Shown piece after piece: positions 1,992 through 21,252 of a DNA stretch of 64,000 bases. The stretch is from Anaerococcus sp. mt242 (lineage in GTDB: Bacteria; Bacillota; Clostridia; Tissierellales; Peptoniphilaceae). The DNA is taken from assembly GCF_016798225.1 (NCBI RefSeq), contig NZ_JAEUYX010000002.1:1-64000 (forward strand), in the 5' to 3' direction. A model generated the notes under the pieces. That model ran no database searches, was not told the DNA's origin, and saw only the letters and a program-made list of their open reading frames with translations. How positions within the stretch are numbered: position 1 is the stretch's first letter; each line of letters begins with the position of its first letter. The position numbers were made by a program, and so were the translations under genes.

Positions 1992-3125
1992 ATGAGAAAT
2001 TCAAATAAAACAGCTGCAATGCTTTTGGCTGGAGGACAAGGTTCTAGACTTAAAGCATTGACAAAGGATATGGCAAAACCAGTTGTTCCATTTGGCGGAA
2101 AATACAGGATCATAGATTTTGCTTTAAGTAATTCAACTAACTCAGAAATAAAAGATATAGGTGTATTAACTCAATATAAACCACAGCTTTTAAATCGTCA
2201 CTTAGGTATTGGTGCTGCTTGGGACTATGACAGAAACTACGGAGGTCTTCGAATTCTTTCTCCATATTATACAGAAGAGGGAGGAAAATGGTTTGAAGGA
2301 ACTGCAAGTGCTATCTATGAAAATATAAATTACCTTGATTTAGTAGATCCTGAATATGTTTTAATTTTATCAGGTGACCATATTTATAAAATGGACTACA
2401 GAGAACTTTTGGATATTCATAAGCAAAAAGGTGCTGATGCTACGATTGCTGTCATGGAAGTAGATTGGGATGAAGCTAGCAGATTTGGAATTATGAATAC
2501 TGATGAAAATGGCAGAATTACAGAATTTGAAGAAAAACCAGAAAATCCAAAATCAAATCTAGCGTCTATGGGTATTTATGTTTTCAACTGGAAAGTTTTG
2601 AGGAAAACTTTAATTGAAGATAATGAAAATCCTGATTCATCAAATGACTTTGGTAAAGATATTATCCCAAAAATGTTAGCAGATGGTGAACCTCTTTATG
2701 TTTATAAATTTGATGGCTATTGGAAAGATGTTGGTACTGTAAGAAGTTACTGGCAAGCAAACTTAGATCTTATAAATCCAAATAATGAACTAGGCATATA
2801 TAATGAGGATTGGAAGATTTATACTACAAGCTTAAACTTACCTCCTCATAGAATTGGACCTAATGGAAAGCTCAATGATGCTTTAGTAAATGAAGCTTGT
2901 GTAATAGATGGTATTGTAGATAATTCTGTATTATTCTCAAATGTTACTGTAGAAGAGGGCGCTGAAGTTTATAATTCAGTTTTATTAAATGGTTCCAAAG
3001 TAAAAGCTGGATGCAAGATTTACAATTGTGTGGTAGCTGAAGATATAGAAATTACAGAAAATATAGGTGATAAAGATACCGATAAAGTCTATTTAGTGAG
3101 TTCTGAAGGTATCGGGGAGGAATAA
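1992..3125 (+). CDS. glgC: Glucose-1-phosphate adenylyltransferase, catalytic subunit
   Basis: Makes ADP-glucose from ATP and glucose-1-phosphate, the committed step of glycogen synthesis. The N-terminal nucleotidyltransferase signature GGQGSRL is at residues 14-20, followed by [30 protein letters not shown] is the sugar-nucleotide active-site region, and FEEKP lies near residue 180. The C-terminal third has the hexapeptide-like pattern of a left-handed beta helix. The length of 377 aa is usual. It is first in a six-gene operon, one base from glgD, its expected partner subunit. Confidence 0.96.
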
Positions 3126-3126
3126 A

Positions 3127-4251
3127 ATGGATAATATTTTAGCATTAGTATATAGCTCAGAATTCAATCCAGCTGATTATGGTGAATTGTGCAAGGTAAG
3201 ACCTGATTATATGTTGCCATATGCAGGTAGATATAGAATTATAGACTTTACCCTTTCAAATTTAACAAACTATGACATATCCAATGTAATATTATATGCA
3301 GGAAATAAGATGAGATCAACACTTGATCATATAGGTGATGGTAGAAGCTGGGAACTTAATAGAAGACGCGGTGGACTTACTATAAATCCTCCAAATTATG
3401 ATAAAAAAAATCCATCAGAAATAGAAACTTATTTTGATACACTTAGAGCCTTTGAAGAAAGTAATGCAGAATATATTTTTGTAACAAACCCAATGTATAT
3501 AAATAAAGTAGATATAGGAGATGCAAAAGAGCAACTAAAAAATCAAGGCAATGACGTACTAATATTTACAAAGAAAACAGAGGATAAGGATGGTTTTTTC
3601 CTCAATCGTAGAATAATTAATTCAAACGAAGAAGGTAAACCAGCAAATGCTGGATTCAATCTAGGTACAAGTGATGAGTTTGATTTATTCGCTGGGTCTA
3701 TTCTTATAAAACGTGAGTTATTCATTAAAGTTTTAAGATATGCCGAAGAAAAAAATTATATTTCAAACTTGCTAAATGCGATTTTTGAATATCCAGAGGA
3801 TTTAGATATAGATTTTTATAGGATTAATAATCAATTAGAAATCATAATGGACACTTACTCATTCTTCGATGCAAATATAAAACTATTAGATAGAGAATAT
3901 TTTGATAACCTCTTCTATAAAGATGGGCTGGTTTACACAAAATCTAAAGATGAGCCTTCAACTTCCTACACAAAAGAAAGCAAAGTTAAAAACTCCTTAA
4001 TAGCCAATGGTGCTATCATAGAAGGAGAAGTAGAAAATTCTGTTATTTTTAGAGGTGTCAAGGTTAAAAAGGGAGCAGTAATCAAAAATTCAATCATCTT
4101 TCAAGACAGCGTAGTCGGAGATGAAGCTATATTAAACTTTGTAATTACAGAAAAAGGAACTCAAGTTGGTAAAAATGTAAAATTATTTGGTAACAGATCT
4201 CATCCATTTGTATCAAGCAAAAATGAAGTGTTAGAAGATTGGAGCTACTAA
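3127..4251 (+). CDS. glgD: GlgD, regulatory paralogue of glucose-1-phosphate adenylyltransferase
   Basis: GlgD is a non-catalytic GlgC homologue that, in Firmicutes, forms a more active heteromer with GlgC. The GRYRIIDFTLSNLTN segment (about residues 33-47) aligns with GlgC, but the GGxGxRL nucleotide loop is replaced by YSSEFNPADYGEL, as known for this family. The C-terminus keeps the beta-helix pattern (VENSVIFRGVKVKKGAVIKN). It is one base after glgC, and its TAA stop shares its last base with the glgA ATG, so coupled translation is likely. Confidence 0.95.
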   Translation: MDNILALVYSSEFNPADYGELCKVRPDYMLPYAGRYRIIDFTLSNLTNYDISNVILYAGNKMRSTLDHIGDGRSWELNRRRGGLTINPPNYDKKNPSEIETYFDTLRAFEESNAEYIFVTNPMYINKVDIGDAKEQLKNQGNDVLIFTKKTEDKDGFFLNRRIINSNEEGKPANAGFNLGTSDEFDLFAGSILIKRELFIKVLRYAEEKNYISNLLNAIFEYPEDLDIDFYRINNQLEIIMDTYSFFDANIKLLDREYFDNLFYKDGLVYTKSKDEPSTSYTKESKVKNSLIANGAIIEGEVENSVIFRGVKVKKGAVIKNSIIFQDSVVGDEAILNFVITEKGTQVGKNVKLFGNRSHPFVSSKNEVLEDWSY

Positions 4252-5682: not shown

Positions 5683-7941
5683 ATGATTACAAATAAAGAG
5701 ATAATTATAGAAAGAATACAAAATTATTTGTATTCTTTTTATGCTAAAAACATACAAACCGCTAGAGATAATGAAATCTATGATTGTCTTTGTAGATATC
5801 TCATGGAAATAATTGGCAAAAGATGGGTTGACACAAAGAAAGTTAAAGAAGGTTATGAAGTATATATTCTAAGCTTTGAATATTTACCTGGAAGATTCCT
5901 AGAAAATGTGATTTATAAACTAGATTTGGAATCTGAAATAAAATTTGCTCTTGATGAAATGGGTTTTTCTTATGATGATATTATAAGCTACGACCCTGAG
6001 CCAGATCTTGGAATTGGTGATATGGGCATGGGATCTTCTTATCTTATAAATGAGCTTTCAAATAAGAAAATTAAAGCTACAGCCTACGCTCTGCGTTATG
6101 AGTCAGGAAATTTTAAACAAGTAATTAAAGATGGAATGCAGAAAGCAGAATCATCCTCTTGGATAAGAAATGGTTATAATTGGGAGCATAGAAAATCTTT
6201 TACAAATGTTATAGAAATTTATGGAAAAAAACATAAAACTATAACCTATGATATGCCAGTTATGTCTGATGATGCCAGTTTTATAAATACTCTAAGATTG
6301 TTTAAATCTGAAGCAACCCAAAATATTAACTTAAACAAGTTTTCAAAAGGTGATATTATTGATGCTTATGATGATTATATTAACAACAGTTCTATAACTG
6401 AATTTTTATATGTGGATGATTCTTCTTATGAAGGCAAGATTTTAAGATTAAAGCAAGAATATTTTTTCTCAGCATCAGCTATGAGAGATTTTGTTCGTAG
6501 ATATGTTTTATATTATGAAGATATTAAAAATATTAATAAGCAAACAAACGTAATTATAAATGATATTCATCCCACACTTGCCCTTATTGAATTTATAAGA
6601 ATATTAACAAGTGAATATAATTTTTCAACTAAAACTGCAATTAAATACACAAGGGAGATTTTTTACCATTTGGTTTTCTCGATTACAGATGACTCACTTG
6701 AACGATATCCTGTTGATGAGATAAGAAATATGAATCCAGAAATTTTATCGACTATAACTGCGATTCAAAATGAACTCATCACCGAAGAAAATTTTAATCC
6801 ATTTATTATAAATGGGTTTGTAATATTTAGAAATATAAATATAGCTTTAAGTAATGATTATATATTCTTATCAAAATCACTTTGTGATAGTAGAAAAAAT
6901 AGCAGGTCTTATTCATATATAAATCTTGGTACAGATAGGCTTATGTATGCTAAAAGTGCAAACAGGAAACTAACTAATTACTTAGAGGAATATAAAATTG
7001 ACATATCTAATACTGAAGATTTTAAAAAATTTAATTTACTTTTATCTAGTAATAAGTTTTTAGATGGACTAGAGGAAATAAAGCTTGAAAATAAAAAAAG
7101 ACTAATAAGAGTACTTGATAGGAAAGAAAAAAACATCAATCCATACTCTATTTTTGATATGCAATTATCCATAATGCATGAGAGTAAAAGACAAATATTA
7201 AATTCTCTTGCAATCGCTTATGAGTTTTATTATCTAAGAGATAACAGAAATGCCTATGCCATTCCAAAAACCTATATTTTTTCTGGAAAAGCTAACGAAG
7301 GTTACTTTATGGCAAAAGAAACTATCAAATTTATTCTGGCTTTAAAAAAACTAATTGAATCTGATAAAATCATTAGAGAAAAATTAAAGATTATTTATGT
7401 AGAAAACCTCTCAGTTACTGATCTTAGATATCTTTATCCTGCATGTGATAACTATTCCAACTTGACCTATCCATTATATGATAATCAAAACTTTGATATT
7501 TTAAATTCAATTCTTAATATGTCAAATATTCTTACCACAAAGGGTGGGATTGTGAAAAATTTAGATATGGAAAACGAGTTTTATTTATTTAAAGAAAATT
7601 ATAATGCTTACGAACAAAGACGAAAAGAAAATTCTTATAATGCAAATAATATTATTAATCAAAATCAAGTAGTAAAATATACTATAGAAAATTTATTAAA
7701 AGAGTCCCACGAAAATTTACCTTATGACTTTAAAAAAATATATGACGAGATAATGTTATACAATGATTCTTTTGAAATATTATTAGACTTAGAAAATTTG
7801 GTTAATCTTAGAGGTCATATCTCAAAAGATTATTTGGATAAAGAAAATTGGGCTAAAAAGCAAGTTGAAAATATTTTGTGGGCCAATGAGTTTAATTTAG
7901 ATCACGTAAAAAAGGATATTAATTTTGGTAAAAGATTATAA
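5683..7941 (+). CDS. Glycogen phosphorylase homologue lacking PLP-site motifs (probable pseudoenzyme)
   Basis: It is full length for GlgP (752 aa) and sits in the GlgP place of the operon, and parts of the family pattern are clear. These are LRYESGNFKQ, INDIHPTLALIEFIR (about residue 291; usual LNDTHPALAI), DMQLSIMHESKRQILN (about 492; usual VQVKRIHEYKRQ) and IFSGKANEGYFMAKE (about 532; usual FGGKAAPGY). Where the EASGTSNMKF segment with the PLP lysine should be (about 590-615), the sequence reads PLYDNQNFDILNSILNMSN. The GNGGLGRLAAC loop is reduced to GIGDMGMGSSYL, and TNGITPRRW to NLGTDRLMY. I infer loss of phosphorolysis and perhaps a glycogen-binding or regulatory role. It overlaps the next gene by 17 bases. 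Confidence 0.85.
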   Translation: MITNKEIIIERIQNYLYSFYAKNIQTARDNEIYDCLCRYLMEIIGKRWVDTKKVKEGYEVYILSFEYLPGRFLENVIYKLDLESEIKFALDEMGFSYDDIISYDPEPDLGIGDMGMGSSYLINELSNKKIKATAYALRYESGNFKQVIKDGMQKAESSSWIRNGYNWEHRKSFTNVIEIYGKKHKTITYDMPVMSDDASFINTLRLFKSEATQNINLNKFSKGDIIDAYDDYINNSSITEFLYVDDSSYEGKILRLKQEYFFSASAMRDFVRRYVLYYEDIKNINKQTNVIINDIHPTLALIEFIRILTSEYNFSTKTAIKYTREIFYHLVFSITDDSLERYPVDEIRNMNPEILSTITAIQNELITEENFNPFIINGFVIFRNINIALSNDYIFLSKSLCDSRKNSRSYSYINLGTDRLMYAKSANRKLTNYLEEYKIDISNTEDFKKFNLLLSSNKFLDGLEEIKLENKKRLIRVLDRKEKNINPYSIFDMQLSIMHESKRQILNSLAIAYEFYYLRDNRNAYAIPKTYIFSGKANEGYFMAKETIKFILALKKLIESDKIIREKLKIIYVENLSVTDLRYLYPACDNYSNLTYPLYDNQNFDILNSILNMSNILTTKGGIVKNLDMENEFYLFKENYNAYEQRRKENSYNANNIINQNQVVKYTIENLLKESHENLPYDFKKIYDEIMLYNDSFEILLDLENLVNLRGHISKDYLDKENWAKKQVENILWANEFNLDHVKKDINFGKRL

Positions 7942-17241: not shown

Positions 17242-18243
17242 ATGGGGCAACCAACAATAAAAGATGTAGCCAAACTTGCCGGAGTTTCAATATCTACAGT
17301 TTCAAGAGTTATGAATAACTCTAAACCCGTTAGTCCAGAAGCTAGGCAAAAAGTTTTAGATGCTATAACAAAACTAGATTTTAAACCAAATGAACTTGCA
17401 AGATCCCTTGTAATGAGACGATCAAATTTAGTAGGGGTTATAGTTGAGGATATAGGTATAGAATATATGGCTCAACTAATAAGAGGTGTAGAAGAGATCG
17501 GAAGAGTATATAAATACGATATATTGTTACAAAGCTCTTATGGTAGTGAAGAAGCATTAAATAATTCTATAGATTTCTTAGCCACAAAGCAAGTTGAAGG
17601 ACTGATAATAATTACAGAAAATCTTACTGATGAAACATTAATCAAGCTTAGGGAAACACGAATACCATTTATATTGCTTGATAAATATCATGCCTATAAA
17701 AATTTAAATACTGTAAAGATTGATTATCTAAAAGAGCAGTATAAACTTACAAAGTACCTATATGATTTAGGACATGAAAGTGTGCTTTACATTGGTAATG
17801 AAGAAGACAACGTACTTAATAATGCAAAACTTCAAGGATATAATGAAGCAGTAAATGATTTAAAAAAAGAAAGTTTTGTATTAAAAATTGATGGCTTATC
17901 AAGTAATGATGGGTATAACATAGGTAAAGAGGCTATCAATCTTTGCAATGAAAATAATATCACTGCAGTTTCTCTTATGAATGATGAAGTGGCAATAGGT
18001 TTTATAGATTACTGTGCTGATCATGGAATAAAAGTACCAGATAAACTATCAGTTACTGGTTTTGGAGATGCATCAATCGCAAGTATATATAGGCCAAATC
18101 TAACCACTGTATCAATTCCATATTATGATATAGGGGCTATAGCAATAAGGGCCCTAATAAAAAGGATTAAAAAAGAAGATGAGATTTTACTAGAAGATTG
18201 GGTAATAGAATGTAATATTGTAGCTCGAGAATCCAGTAAGTGA
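17242..18243 (+). CDS. LacI-family regulator, possibly CcpA
   Basis: The N-terminal helix-turn-helix (TIKDVAKLAGVSISTVSRVM, residues 5-24) and hinge (about 50-60) are followed by a periplasmic-binding-like effector domain. The length of 333 aa and segments such as YKYDILLQSS, VTGFGDAS and PYYDIGAIAIRAL resemble CcpA. The genes directly downstream are ptsH and ptsI, and HPr-Ser-P is the CcpA corepressor. The upstream terminator separates it from the previous operon. It could instead be a sugar-specific LacI regulator; residues contacting HPr need alignment. A palindromic LacI-type element lies in the ptsH promoter. Confidence 0.85.
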   Translation: MGQPTIKDVAKLAGVSISTVSRVMNNSKPVSPEARQKVLDAITKLDFKPNELARSLVMRRSNLVGVIVEDIGIEYMAQLIRGVEEIGRVYKYDILLQSSYGSEEALNNSIDFLATKQVEGLIIITENLTDETLIKLRETRIPFILLDKYHAYKNLNTVKIDYLKEQYKLTKYLYDLGHESVLYIGNEEDNVLNNAKLQGYNEAVNDLKKESFVLKIDGLSSNDGYNIGKEAINLCNENNITAVSLMNDEVAIGFIDYCADHGIKVPDKLSVTGFGDASIASIYRPNLTTVSIPYYDIGAIAIRALIKRIKKEDEILLEDWVIECNIVARESSK

Positions 18244-18246
18244 TAG

Positions 18247-18274
18247 TTGAAAAACGTTTATAAAACATTATAAT
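18247..18274 (+). promoter_or_regulatory. ptsH promoter with possible LacI/CcpA operator
   Basis: The -35 TTGAAA (18247-18252) and -10 TATAAT (18269-18274) are 16 bp apart. In the spacer, AAAAACGTTTAT (18250-18261) is an imperfect palindrome centred on CG, as LacI-family sites are. It departs from the standard cre (one extra base after TG and no final CA), so binding is a suggestion. Confidence 0.55.
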
Positions 18275-18302: not shown

Positions 18303-18563
18303 ATGGCTGAAAGAAACGTTGTTATAAAAAATGAAACAGGATTACACGCAAGACCTGCTGCATCACTTGTACAATTTGTAAAAAATTATCCAGGTGAAGT
18401 AAAAATCATTAAAGAAGGTAAGGAAGCAAATGCTAAATCAATCTTTAATGTTATGAGTCTTGGAATTGCTAAAGGAACTGATATCACTTTAGTAGTTGAA
18501 GGTGAAGACGAAGATAAATTTGCAGATGAATTAGTTGATTTTATTGAAAACTTATCAGAATAA
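18303..18563 (+). CDS. ptsH: Phosphocarrier protein HPr
   Basis: Carries phosphate from EI to sugar-specific EII components. The histidine motif GLHARPA (His about 15) and the regulatory serine segment KSIFNVMSLGIAKG (Ser about 46) are both intact, so it should be a target of HPr kinase and able to act as CcpA corepressor. The length of 86 aa is standard. GAGGAGG precedes the ATG. A terminator follows, so some transcripts stop before ptsI, giving more HPr than EI. Confidence 0.97.
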   Translation: MAERNVVIKNETGLHARPAASLVQFVKNYPGEVKIIKEGKEANAKSIFNVMSLGIAKGTDITLVVEGEDEDKFADELVDFIENLSE

Positions 18564-18576
18564 TATTTAGCATTTT

Positions 18577-18603
18577 AGGATACTGATTAGTATCCTTTTT
18601 TTT
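18577..18603 (+). terminator. Terminator or attenuator between ptsH and ptsI
   Basis: AGGATACT pairs perfectly with AGTATCCT around GATT, followed by seven or more T. No clear promoter is visible for ptsI downstream, so partial read-through is the likely source of ptsI transcript. Confidence 0.85.
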
Positions 18604-18627: not shown

Positions 18628-20331
18628 ATGAATACTAAATACGAGGGGATTAAGGCAAGTACTGGTATAGCCATAGGTACTATTTATTTATTTAATAGAG
18701 AAGAGGTTGTAATTGACGATTCTAAAATAGATGATGCGATGATTGAAGATGAAAAAAATCGCATAAAGACTGCAATCAACGACTATATCAGCGAATTAGA
18801 TAATAATGAAGGTGCAAGCGAAGCTCAAGTAAATATTGCTAATGCGCATAAAGAGCTCCTACAAGACCCTTATTTCTCAGATACTATAAATGCAAAAATA
18901 GAAAATGAACTTAAGAATTCTGAGATGGCTTTAAATGAAACGGTTAATGAAATGGTAGAAATCATGAGCCAAATTGATGACGAGTACTTAAAAGAACGTG
19001 CAAGCGACTACAAAGATATCGGATATCAATTAATGTATAAATTAAAGGGTATTAAACCAAAAGATTTATCTCTATTGGAAAAAGGTTCGATTGTAATATC
19101 AAAAGAACTTACACCATCTGATACATCAAATATGAATAAGGAAAATGTTGTGGGATTTGCAACTGACCTTGGTGGAAAGACAAGCCATACCTCAATTATT
19201 GCTCAAACTTTAGATATTCCAGCTTTAGTTGGTATGCAAGATATATCTACAAAAGTAGAGGGCGGAGAAAATGCGATTATTGATGGAGATCAAGGACTTA
19301 TAATCCTAAATCCATCAGATGATGTAATTGCAGAATACCAAACAAAAATCAAAGAGCAAAAAGAAAAACAAGAAAGACTAAAAGAGATAAAAGACAAAGA
19401 AGCAGTTACTAGTGATGGTAAAAAAGTAGAAGTATCTGCGAATATTGGAAATATTGAAGATTTAAAAGTAGCAATTGAAAATGGTTGTGATGGTGTAGGC
19501 TTATTCAGAACTGAATTCTTATATATGGAAAATGATCATTTCCCAACAGAAGAAGAACAATATGAAGTTTATAAAGAAGCTACACAAATGCTAGGCGAAA
19601 AACCACTTATAATTAGAACCTTAGATATAGGTGGGGATAAGGGATTAGATTACTTTACATTCCCAGTTGAAGAAAATCCATTTTTAGGTTATAGAGCAAT
19701 TAGACTTTGTTTAGATAGAGAAGATATATTTAGAACCCAACTTAAGGCTCTAGTTAGGGCATCAGCCTTTGGTAATCTTAAGATTATGATTCCAATGATT
19801 ATTAATATCTCTGAATTTAAAAGAACTTTAGAGATTATCGAAGATATTAAAAAAGAATTAGATCAAAATGGTGTAGATTATAACAAAGATATTGAAGTGG
19901 GTATTATGATTGAAACTCCAGCATCCGTATTCATGGCTGATCAGTTTATCAAATATGTAGATTTCTTCTCTATAGGTACAAATGACCTTTCTCAATACAC
20001 TCTTGCAGTAGATAGGGGAAATGAAAATATATCTGACCTATATTCTAACTACAACCCAGCAGTTTTAAGAGCTATAAAGCATGTAATTGATGCTTCTCAT
20101 AAATCAGGAAAATGGACAGGTATGTGTGGCCAATTTGCATCAGATACGGAAGCTACAAAACTACTTTTAGGTTTAGGTTTAGACGAGTATTCTGCATCAC
20201 CTTCAAAAATTGCTGAAATTAAAGATACAGTTATCAAGTCTAGCTTAAAAAATGAAGAAGAATTCTCAAATTCATTATTAGATTTAGAAACTCCAGAAGA
20301 AGTTGAAGAAAAGGTAAAAGAACACAATTAG
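18628..20331 (+). CDS. ptsI: Phosphoenolpyruvate-protein phosphotransferase (EI)
   Basis: Takes phosphate from PEP and passes it to HPr. The phosphohistidine motif GGKTSHTSIIA places the active His at residue 187. The PEP-binding barrel has GVGLFRTEFLYM, the ETPA segment and the C-terminal GMCGQFASD region with its catalytic Cys. The length of 567 aa is normal. RBS AGGAAAGG lies 9 nt before the ATG. It is followed four bases later by a kinase-fold gene that is not a usual PTS partner. Confidence 0.96.
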   Translation: MNTKYEGIKASTGIAIGTIYLFNREEVVIDDSKIDDAMIEDEKNRIKTAINDYISELDNNEGASEAQVNIANAHKELLQDPYFSDTINAKIENELKNSEMALNETVNEMVEIMSQIDDEYLKERASDYKDIGYQLMYKLKGIKPKDLSLLEKGSIVISKELTPSDTSNMNKENVVGFATDLGGKTSHTSIIAQTLDIPALVGMQDISTKVEGGENAIIDGDQGLIILNPSDDVIAEYQTKIKEQKEKQERLKEIKDKEAVTSDGKKVEVSANIGNIEDLKVAIENGCDGVGLFRTEFLYMENDHFPTEEEQYEVYKEATQMLGEKPLIIRTLDIGGDKGLDYFTFPVEENPFLGYRAIRLCLDREDIFRTQLKALVRASAFGNLKIMIPMIINISEFKRTLEIIEDIKKELDQNGVDYNKDIEVGIMIETPASVFMADQFIKYVDFFSIGTNDLSQYTLAVDRGNENISDLYSNYNPAVLRAIKHVIDASHKSGKWTGMCGQFASDTEATKLLLGLGLDEYSASPSKIAEIKDTVIKSSLKNEEEFSNSLLDLETPEEVEEKVKEHN

Positions 20332-20335
20332 AAAA

Positions 20336-21211
20336 ATGCTAGGTATTATTGAAGATCAAATAAAAAAATTGAATTATTTTAAGAATAATGATTTGATCAT
20401 AAAAGATATCATTAATCTAAATGAAGAAATGTATAAAATCATCACACAATCTGGCGATTTTATTCTTCATATTTTTCACAAAAATAGCTATGATAAGCTA
20501 ATGCAATTGTCAATTAAAAACCAGTCCACAATAAAAACAGGAACATTTGACAAAAATCATTATTACGAGATTAGCGAATATAGGGATTTAACAAGCTTAA
20601 ATGATTATTTAATAAATAATAGTAAAAAAAATAATTATGAAATGGGAATGAAATTTGGAAGAATTCTTAAACAAATCCATTCAATTACTCCTGAAGAAAA
20701 AATTAATTGGTTTGATTTTTTTAATACCAAAGCAAACTATCTTTTTTATATGCATGGAGTAAATGAAGATATTGGGGATGATGACTATATACTTATAGAT
20801 TATATAAACCATAATAAACATTTAACTAAAAATATATGTCCATCATATATTTTTAATAGTCTTGATTTGTCAAATATCTACTTAGATGAAAAAGGAAATC
20901 TAATTATGTCTGGAATTAACTTTACTAAAGTTGGGGATGGCGTATATGATTTTGTAAATCTGAATGATATAGGATTAAAAAATAGTGAATTTACTAGGGG
21001 ATGTTCTGATGGATACTTTGAAAATCGTAAAGCTCCTATAAAATTCTTTAGGTTATTAGCCCTTTATGAAGCATACAATATTTTATACAATATTGTTGCT
21101 CATAGAGAGGGAAAACCAAGTATATATAGCTTAGATGATTTAAAAGAGTTATTAACAATGTATGACAACTTTAATACTGATATTCCAAATTGGATTAAAG
21201 AAGGTAATTAG
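20336..21211 (+). CDS. APH-fold phosphotransferase homologue lacking catalytic residues
   Basis: The 291-aa protein resembles the aminoglycoside/choline kinase fold. ISEYRDLTSLNDYL looks like the hinge, and FGRILKQIHS (about residues 107-116) is the family helix. The catalytic-loop equivalent is FNSLDLSN (173-180), where HGDLHLGN is expected, so both His and catalytic Asp are replaced. The metal-site IDF is INF (194-196), and the usual GDPAYDL is GDGVYDF. I infer a non-catalytic kinase-like protein. It is four bases after ptsI with only a weak ribosome binding site. There is no reason to call it antibiotic resistance. Confidence 0.65.
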   Translation: MLGIIEDQIKKLNYFKNNDLIIKDIINLNEEMYKIITQSGDFILHIFHKNSYDKLMQLSIKNQSTIKTGTFDKNHYYEISEYRDLTSLNDYLINNSKKNNYEMGMKFGRILKQIHSITPEEKINWFDFFNTKANYLFYMHGVNEDIGDDDYILIDYINHNKHLTKNICPSYIFNSLDLSNIYLDEKGNLIMSGINFTKVGDGVYDFVNLNDIGLKNSEFTRGCSDGYFENRKAPIKFFRLLALYEAYNILYNIVAHREGKPSIYSLDDLKELLTMYDNFNTDIPNWIKEGN

Positions 21212-21222
21212 CCTTCTTTTTT
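21199..21222 (+). terminator. Terminator after the kinase-like gene
   Basis: AAGAAGG pairs with CCTTCTT around TAATTAG and is followed by T. The stem includes the last codons and the stop of the preceding gene. Confidence 0.75.
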
Positions 21223-21224
21223 AC

Positions 21225-21252
21225 TTGCCATAATTGTATAAAAACTTATAAT
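21225..21252 (+). promoter_or_regulatory. Promoter of the yitT-cvfB operon
   Basis: TTGCCA (21225-21230) and TATAAT (21247-21252) are 16 bp apart, about 40 nt upstream of the first ATG. Confidence 0.6.

Follow-up and report, generated by a model that had tools for sequence, protein, structure and literature searches.

The window, by which we mean the whole 64,000-nucleotide stretch analysed here (positions 1 to 64,000 of contig NZ_JAEUYX010000002.1 of Anaerococcus sp. mt242), carries directly behind ptsI, the gene for EI, a gene that we refer to as K. Named by sequence, the genes at this locus run in the order DUF948-like, ccpA-like, ptsH, ptsI, K, yitT-like, S1-like and PpiC-like, and HprK is also present in the genome. 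The following features surround K:

17242–18243, + strand: ccpA-like regulator of the LacI family, upstream; named by sequence and not by family search, with synteny in related loci
18247–18274, + strand: promoter-like site before ptsH (11/12)
18303–18563, + strand: ptsH (HPr), which adjoins ptsI in related loci
18628–20331, + strand: ptsI (EI), its stop 4 nt before K; TIGR01417, 637.7 bits
20336–21211, + strand: K, predicted pseudokinase of APH/choline-kinase fold, 291 aa; ORF and translation from ATG to TAG, AlphaFold2 model, matches to APH, LicA and CcrZ
21197–21219, + strand: terminator-like hairpin in which the stop codon of K lies

A second promoter-like site lies ahead of yitT at 21225. 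Promoter-like sites numbered 18 where shuffles gave an expectation of 25.3; as there is no enrichment, those before ptsH and yitT are weak evidence. Terminator-like sites were mildly enriched in the region (4 found versus 1.6 expected), and the hairpin at 21197–21219 had a z of −2.15, with 10 of 200 shuffles folding equally well. Among 40 loci, 22 had a terminator-like hairpin 3′ of K, against 0.8 expected from mononucleotide shuffles. Another such hairpin, at 18577–18596 between ptsH and ptsI, could set the HPr:EI ratio, and with it in place not every transcript need carry both ptsH and K.

The AlphaFold2 model of K, built on a 30-row genus alignment, had a pLDDT of 87.7 and a pTM of 0.83 and showed the two-lobe APH/choline-kinase fold, 294 of 999 chains matching at Z ≥ 8. 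The comparison with APH and choline kinases proposed in the first-pass annotation returned APH(2″), CcrZ and LicA among the matches. In Foldseek, LicA (4r78) came first with an E of 6.1e-9, followed by APH(2″) structures, with CcrZ at rank 28. VIA-align placed APH(2″)-IIIa (3tdw) at Z 15.9 (rmsd 4.5, 268 aligned), CcrZ (7s3l) at Z 15.3, APH(9)-Ia at 15.1 and YtaA (2q83) at Z 14.6 (rmsd 4.4, 262 aligned); rows within 1 Z were counted as tied, so that CcrZ is tied with the APHs. By sequence, the K protein of the window taken alone matched no Pfam family and no NCBIfam model at E up to 10, HMMER filters limiting the NCBIfam search, and PDB sequence searches with the single protein and with a profile gave no relevant match. 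Among the 30 genus members, 19 matched PF01636 at E up to 1, the lowest E being 4.7e-6. Of seven pseudokinase relatives searched against NCBIfam under the same limiting filters, four had no match and three had weak, unrelated or APH-type matches only.

We aligned K with its genus and with 24 motif-intact relatives, which were chosen by motif (HGD(Y/F)HxxN plus IDF), so that the invariance of His (24/24) and Asp (24/24) among them is partly by construction. The sites concerned are:

20336–20620, + strand: N-lobe, residues 1–95, with the glycine loop shortened and His45 for the beta3 Arg (alignment)
20678–20680, + strand: His115, fold-stabilising His at the end of helix aE (30/30 in the genus alignment)
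20708–20827, + strand: insert helices 125–141 and 148–164, with Tyr151 and Asp155, which rank with the best-conserved regions of the pseudokinase (model, conservation)
20852–20875, + strand: catalytic-loop site FNSLDLSN, residues 173–180, replacing HGD(Y/F)HxGN (alignment)
20912–20923, + strand: metal-motif site G-I-N-F, residues 193–196, replacing IDF (alignment)
20936–20950, + strand: Asp201 to Asp205, the GDxxxD structural motif, retained (alignment)

The first-pass annotation had read the catalytic loop as FNSLDLSN, with the catalytic Asp gone, and the alignment bears this out: F173-N174-S175 stands at HGD, with residue 173 aligned to the His and residue 175 to the Asp, and Asn180 is present, as it is in 21 of 39 pseudokinase rows. 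Over the 30 aligned rows from the genus, the catalytic column holds 15 Asn, 7 Lys, 3 Gly, 3 Asp, 1 Gln and 1 Ser, that is, a residue other than Asp in 27 of 30. The earlier reading of the metal motif as INF in place of IDF stood in part: the Asp is indeed missing, and the residue aligned with it against the 24 relatives is Gly193, not Asn195. Equating INF with IDF needs a shift of two residues, which appears reasonable because LDF or TDF stands at the shifted site in 5 of the 30 genus rows. The metal-site Asp is absent from the window's K with or without the shift; the five genus rows have it only when the shift is applied. No row among the 30 has both Asps together, and the genome of the 31st member of the genus (L095) has neither the catalytic nor the metal Asp. 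The KGWS glycine loop of K is shortened by two or five residues, depending on the alignment, and contains no Gly, and the beta3 Arg, found in 24/24 relatives, is His45 in K and Lys in 3/30 genus rows. The claim that the surrounding fold signature is kept also held, with His115, Asp201 and Asp205 each conserved in 30/30 genus rows and an APH/CAK fold predicted. We read His115 as the equivalent of His148 of YtaA (PMC2860764). At the level of sequence, K was shown to have lost the residues with which ATP and metal would be bound and the phosphoryl group transferred.

In six other genomes (G011, G023, G055, G057, G058 and G067) the whole N-lobe is missing, and therefore no ordinary ATP site is left there. 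In G011 and G023, just 19–20 nt separate ptsI from an ORF of 202–210 aa that starts near residue 87 of K and has a GGAAG-type site upstream, and the 206–211 aa forms of G055, G057, G058 and G067 (genera g7, g8 and g16) make up one 100/100 clade. It follows from genus membership that the N-lobe was lost at least twice, because the other copies in genus g1 are two-lobed, the frameshifted G028 apart; the K tree leaves open the fork at which the two groups would join. A C-lobe-only form of 202 aa was predicted to fold alone (pLDDT 91.6, pTM 0.89). Foldseek with this model returned APH and Mph enzymes more weakly than with full K, the best E being 1.9e-3, and gave no match below E 0.001.

K was encoded in all 31 genomes of the genus, and so is not there by chance. 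A search with the genus profile matched 58 of 130 genomes of the taxonomic family; 54 of these hold the dead form, and G056, G059, G063 and G091 hold motif-intact kinases only (motifs read by eye). The pseudokinase occurs in 12 of the family's 39 genera. At the level of the order, 90 of 249 genomes matched, 32 of them outside the family. In the 20 of these 32 that were examined, the HxD....N motif was found in 19 ORFs, L108 having an odd ORF of 514 aa without it; no motif-intact kinase linked to ptsI was seen, as the stretches from these 20 genomes, some of which end at contig ends, contained no EI. L097–L116 represent a motif-intact APH-type kinase family (HGDYHVGNMII ... IIDFNRMDYGDPWEEFNR) that is common in the same order. 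In a tree built from 39 dead rows and 24 intact ones, each class fell on one side of a 100/100 branch, recovered in 100% of 200 bootstrap trees; the tree has no outgroup rooting, a long branch (1.36) divides the classes, and the motifs under study had themselves served to sort the rows. The tree omits 13 copies from the genus, G102 and G087 with their frameshifts, and the motif-intact L091, L093, L102, L108 and L109. The simplest reading, which is not proof, would be a single loss of the catalytic motifs. Among the sequences found here, the closest relatives of the dead family were the motif-intact APH family of its own order (the tree contains no BSK row); plasmid records gave five weak matches annotated as phosphotransferase, at 26–28% identity.

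Alignment, structure, tree and N-lobe loss thus agree with the first-pass annotation in making K a pseudoenzyme of kinase fold, and we regard K as almost certainly a dead kinase. The opposing reading, that K still acts as a kinase through a catalytic Asp that has moved (Asp177, Asp150 or Asp155, for instance) or through unusual chemistry, is very improbable. It could draw on the invariance of Tyr151 and Asp155 (39/39), the Asn180 of 21/39 rows, the catalytic-position Asp of three genus rows and the LDF or TDF of five, and odd chemistry does occur in divergent kinase folds; it has against it the joint absence from the window's K of the glycine loop, the beta3 Arg and both Asps, as well as the complete loss of the N-lobe in six genomes. 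Asp177, raised in the first-pass annotation as a relocated catalytic Asp, was rejected, since it is Asp in only 3/30 genus rows.

Two further proteins of the window may be mentioned here. A glycogen-phosphorylase-like protein at 5683–7941 has no visible PLP-lysine motif, which in glycogen phosphorylase is EASGTGNMK, and a second glycogen phosphorylase copy in the genome matched the full model at 987 bits, where 5683–7941 matched in pieces of 191 and 165 bits; the protein at 5683–7941 is probably another pseudoenzyme. A GlgD-like protein at 3127–4251, named by sequence, lies beside GlgC (1992–3125). GlgD-type subunits are usually regarded as non-catalytic, and this protein may be another of the pseudoenzymes that the first-pass annotation had in mind when it called K the second or third in the window.

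A dead kinase might be a decaying remnant. Broken frames in G087, G028 and G102 and the fast divergence of K would fit such a reading; it is countered by the presence of K in 31/31 genus genomes and by Nei-Gojobori dN/dS values of 0.049–0.203 in all 13 pairs examined, although some of the dS values are above 1 and thus rough. In these three genomes (loci L094, L096 and L085; two ORFs in G087) K is split into two frames, by decay or by sequencing error; for G028 our guess is sequencing error, EI being split in another draft, G029. We therefore rejected a decaying pseudogene, which we consider extremely improbable.

Conservation was also distributed differently in dead and intact proteins, as measured in 19 and 13 two-lobe dead rows against 24 intact rows of unequal taxonomic breadth, for which reason the comparison is indicative only. 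The insert helices 125–141 and 148–164 carried 3.08–3.23 bits per column in dead rows versus 2.41 and 2.52 in intact rows, whereas the catalytic loop carried 2.94 and 2.57 versus 3.53 and the DFG region 2.72 and 2.13 versus 3.33; for the helices from residue 200 on, the two classes were about equal. Tyr151 and Asp155, each present in all 39 dead rows, occur in 0/24 and 4/24 intact rows, respectively. These values are indicative of a move of conservation from the active site to the insert helices, as would be expected for a change from catalysis to binding. Because dN/dS is low and the N-lobe has been lost without loss of the gene, we infer that K is kept for binding, and we predict with good confidence that a non-catalytic binding function is under selection.

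The first-pass annotation had tied K to EI by operon position, and this linkage was confirmed in relatives. K comes after ptsI in 31/31 genus genomes. Outside the genus, 17 of 23 pseudokinase genomes are linked, 11 with K directly after ptsI and 6 with K about 1.7–3.3 kb downstream and one or two genes between; the remaining six, all in genus g34, have K about 52–59 kb from ptsI or on another contig. K is accordingly near ptsI in 11 of the 12 genera that bear it, and all 48 linked copies lie downstream of EI on the same strand. In 37 of 40 loci the gap from EI to K falls between −23 and 26 nt (the starts of L022 and L063 are off by one or two codons, which leaves this count unaffected). The neighbour on the far side of K varies: g1 and g32 have yitT there, g14 and g17 a gene resembling sugar-nucleotide reductases, g6 a ModE-like gene (by eye), and g7 and g16 an opposite-strand gene. 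By eye, a ModE-like helix-turn-helix gene also stood 3′ of the pseudokinase across g6, g24 and g30 (L066, L068, L072 and L078); g24 and g30 had, between ptsI and K, two genes on the opposite strand, one of them pyridoxal-enzyme-like. The identification of a 112-aa neighbour in other genera as HinT was wrong: again by eye, g6 and g30 have a ModE-like gene in this place, g24 one of 117 aa, and g34 a MazF-like gene.

The same annotation had considered a role in PTS control possible, and here the evidence, all of it circumstantial, was divided. In its favour, the pseudokinase was found only in genera with EI: 12 of the 22 whose EI exceeds the cut-off have it and none of the 17 others (p 2.4e-4, uncorrected for phylogeny). 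Counted by genome, it is in 54 of 77 EI-bearing versus 0 of 53 EI-less. Because 10 of the 22 EI-bearing genera lack the pseudokinase, K is not a core part of the PTS. A search for a diverged, hidden K behind ptsI, covering non-overlapping ORFs in 20 of the 23 EI-bearing genomes without the pseudokinase (all save G045, G048 and G052), gave no convincing match, the best score shown being 4.8 bits on an HPr ORF. On the other side stand the unlinked K of g34 and the negative outcome of a test for rate covariation of K with EI, in which the neighbouring YitT served as control. Across 25 genus loci (the 30 loci L003–L032 minus L008, L012, L013, L027 and L029), the partial r between EI and K given YitT was −0.22, that between EI and YitT given K being 0.91; the mean distance was 0.74 for K versus 0.26 for EI, K thus diverging faster. 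Since yitT constantly follows K (30/30 genus loci examined), the linkage within the genus may be plain synteny. In g15 and in 3 of 5 g31 genomes, a yitT-like gene comes directly after ptsI and K is absent. We regard a PTS role for K as plausible but unproven, and a PTS protein as its partner as possible, at somewhat below an even chance.

The best explanation overall, which we offer tentatively as coming close to an even chance, is that K would be a non-catalytic binder, descended from an APH/choline-kinase (CAK)-type kinase of small molecules, its partner most likely EI or HPr. Selection would keep such a protein for binding instead of catalysis. Its binding face would probably be the C-lobe insert with helices 125–141 and 148–164, because the residues that are invariant in, and specific to, the family gather there; the conservation is observed, and the role is what we propose for it. 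EI or HPr would be the likeliest partner because K lies directly behind ptsI and ahead of a terminator-like hairpin. K could then hold or tune EI or HPr without chemistry, for example by masking the phosphorylation site of EI or the surface on which HPr docks. A partner outside the PTS, such as another enzyme or a small molecule bound in the former acceptor pocket, is likewise possible, falling somewhat short of an even chance; the position behind ptsI would then reflect only co-expression with carbon status. This alternative gains from g34, where K is unlinked yet shows the same losses and the kept insert residues, from the negative EI covariation, and from the conservation of the insert helices, which in CAK enzymes form the acceptor side. 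It sits less well with the absence of K from all 17 EI-less genera and with a K that stays near ptsI in 11/12 genera while the gene on its far side changes. The most specific form of the preferred reading, in which K binds EI or HPr, is a pseudokinase dedicated to the PTS. In it, a fold of the antibiotic-kinase type would have become a non-enzymatic regulator of EI or HPr, co-made with EI from one operon, its dispensable ATP lobe shed in more than one lineage and its binding C-lobe under selection. In this full form we hold the reading to be rather doubtful.

Among known systems, the fold of K is common to the PF01636 phosphotransferases (APH(2″)-IIIa, APH(2″)-IVa and Mph), from which K differs in having no catalytic motifs. 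It is also like that of LicA choline kinase and of CcrZ of Firmicutes, which are kinases, whereas K has neither the motifs nor the same gene context. In E. coli, the separate small protein TmaR, which we take to be unrelated to K, acts on EI by binding; K is a candidate EI binder only. K's genus is not known to form spores. The bacterial spore kinases (BSK), which comprise YtaA/CotI, CotS, YutH, YsxE and BSKC6, include five predicted pseudokinases without the catalytic Asp, in which the His and Asp of the C-lobe have for the most part been retained, and in BSKC6 the entire N-lobe is lost (PMC2860764). BSKs and K share a CAK/APH fold and an occurrence in Firmicutes, catalytic residues that are lost beside a retained C-lobe His and Asp (His115 and Asp201/205, 30/30, in K), and an N-lobe that is missing in BSKC6 and in six genomes of the K family; BSKs differ in being spore-coat proteins, and K lies behind ptsI. 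The K family is in this respect a further group of CAK/APH-fold pseudokinases beside the spore kinases, the example we found in print (PMC2860764).

Bacterial pseudokinases are described in PMC12599244 as largely unexplored experimentally. In a 2025 review of bacterial Ser/Thr pseudokinases, the term 'PTS' is absent, and where aminoglycoside kinases come up the subject is drug inhibition and not pseudokinases; our search of the open-access literature for a pseudokinase with the PTS, or with ptsI in Anaerococcus, found nothing on K. The K family offers a natural series that runs from motif-intact kinases through dead two-lobe proteins to C-lobe-only proteins, the dead forms being neighbours of EI, with which the PTS begins. 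If K binds EI or HPr, it would add to the anaerobic Gram-positive cocci a layer of PTS control that we did not find in the open-access literature.
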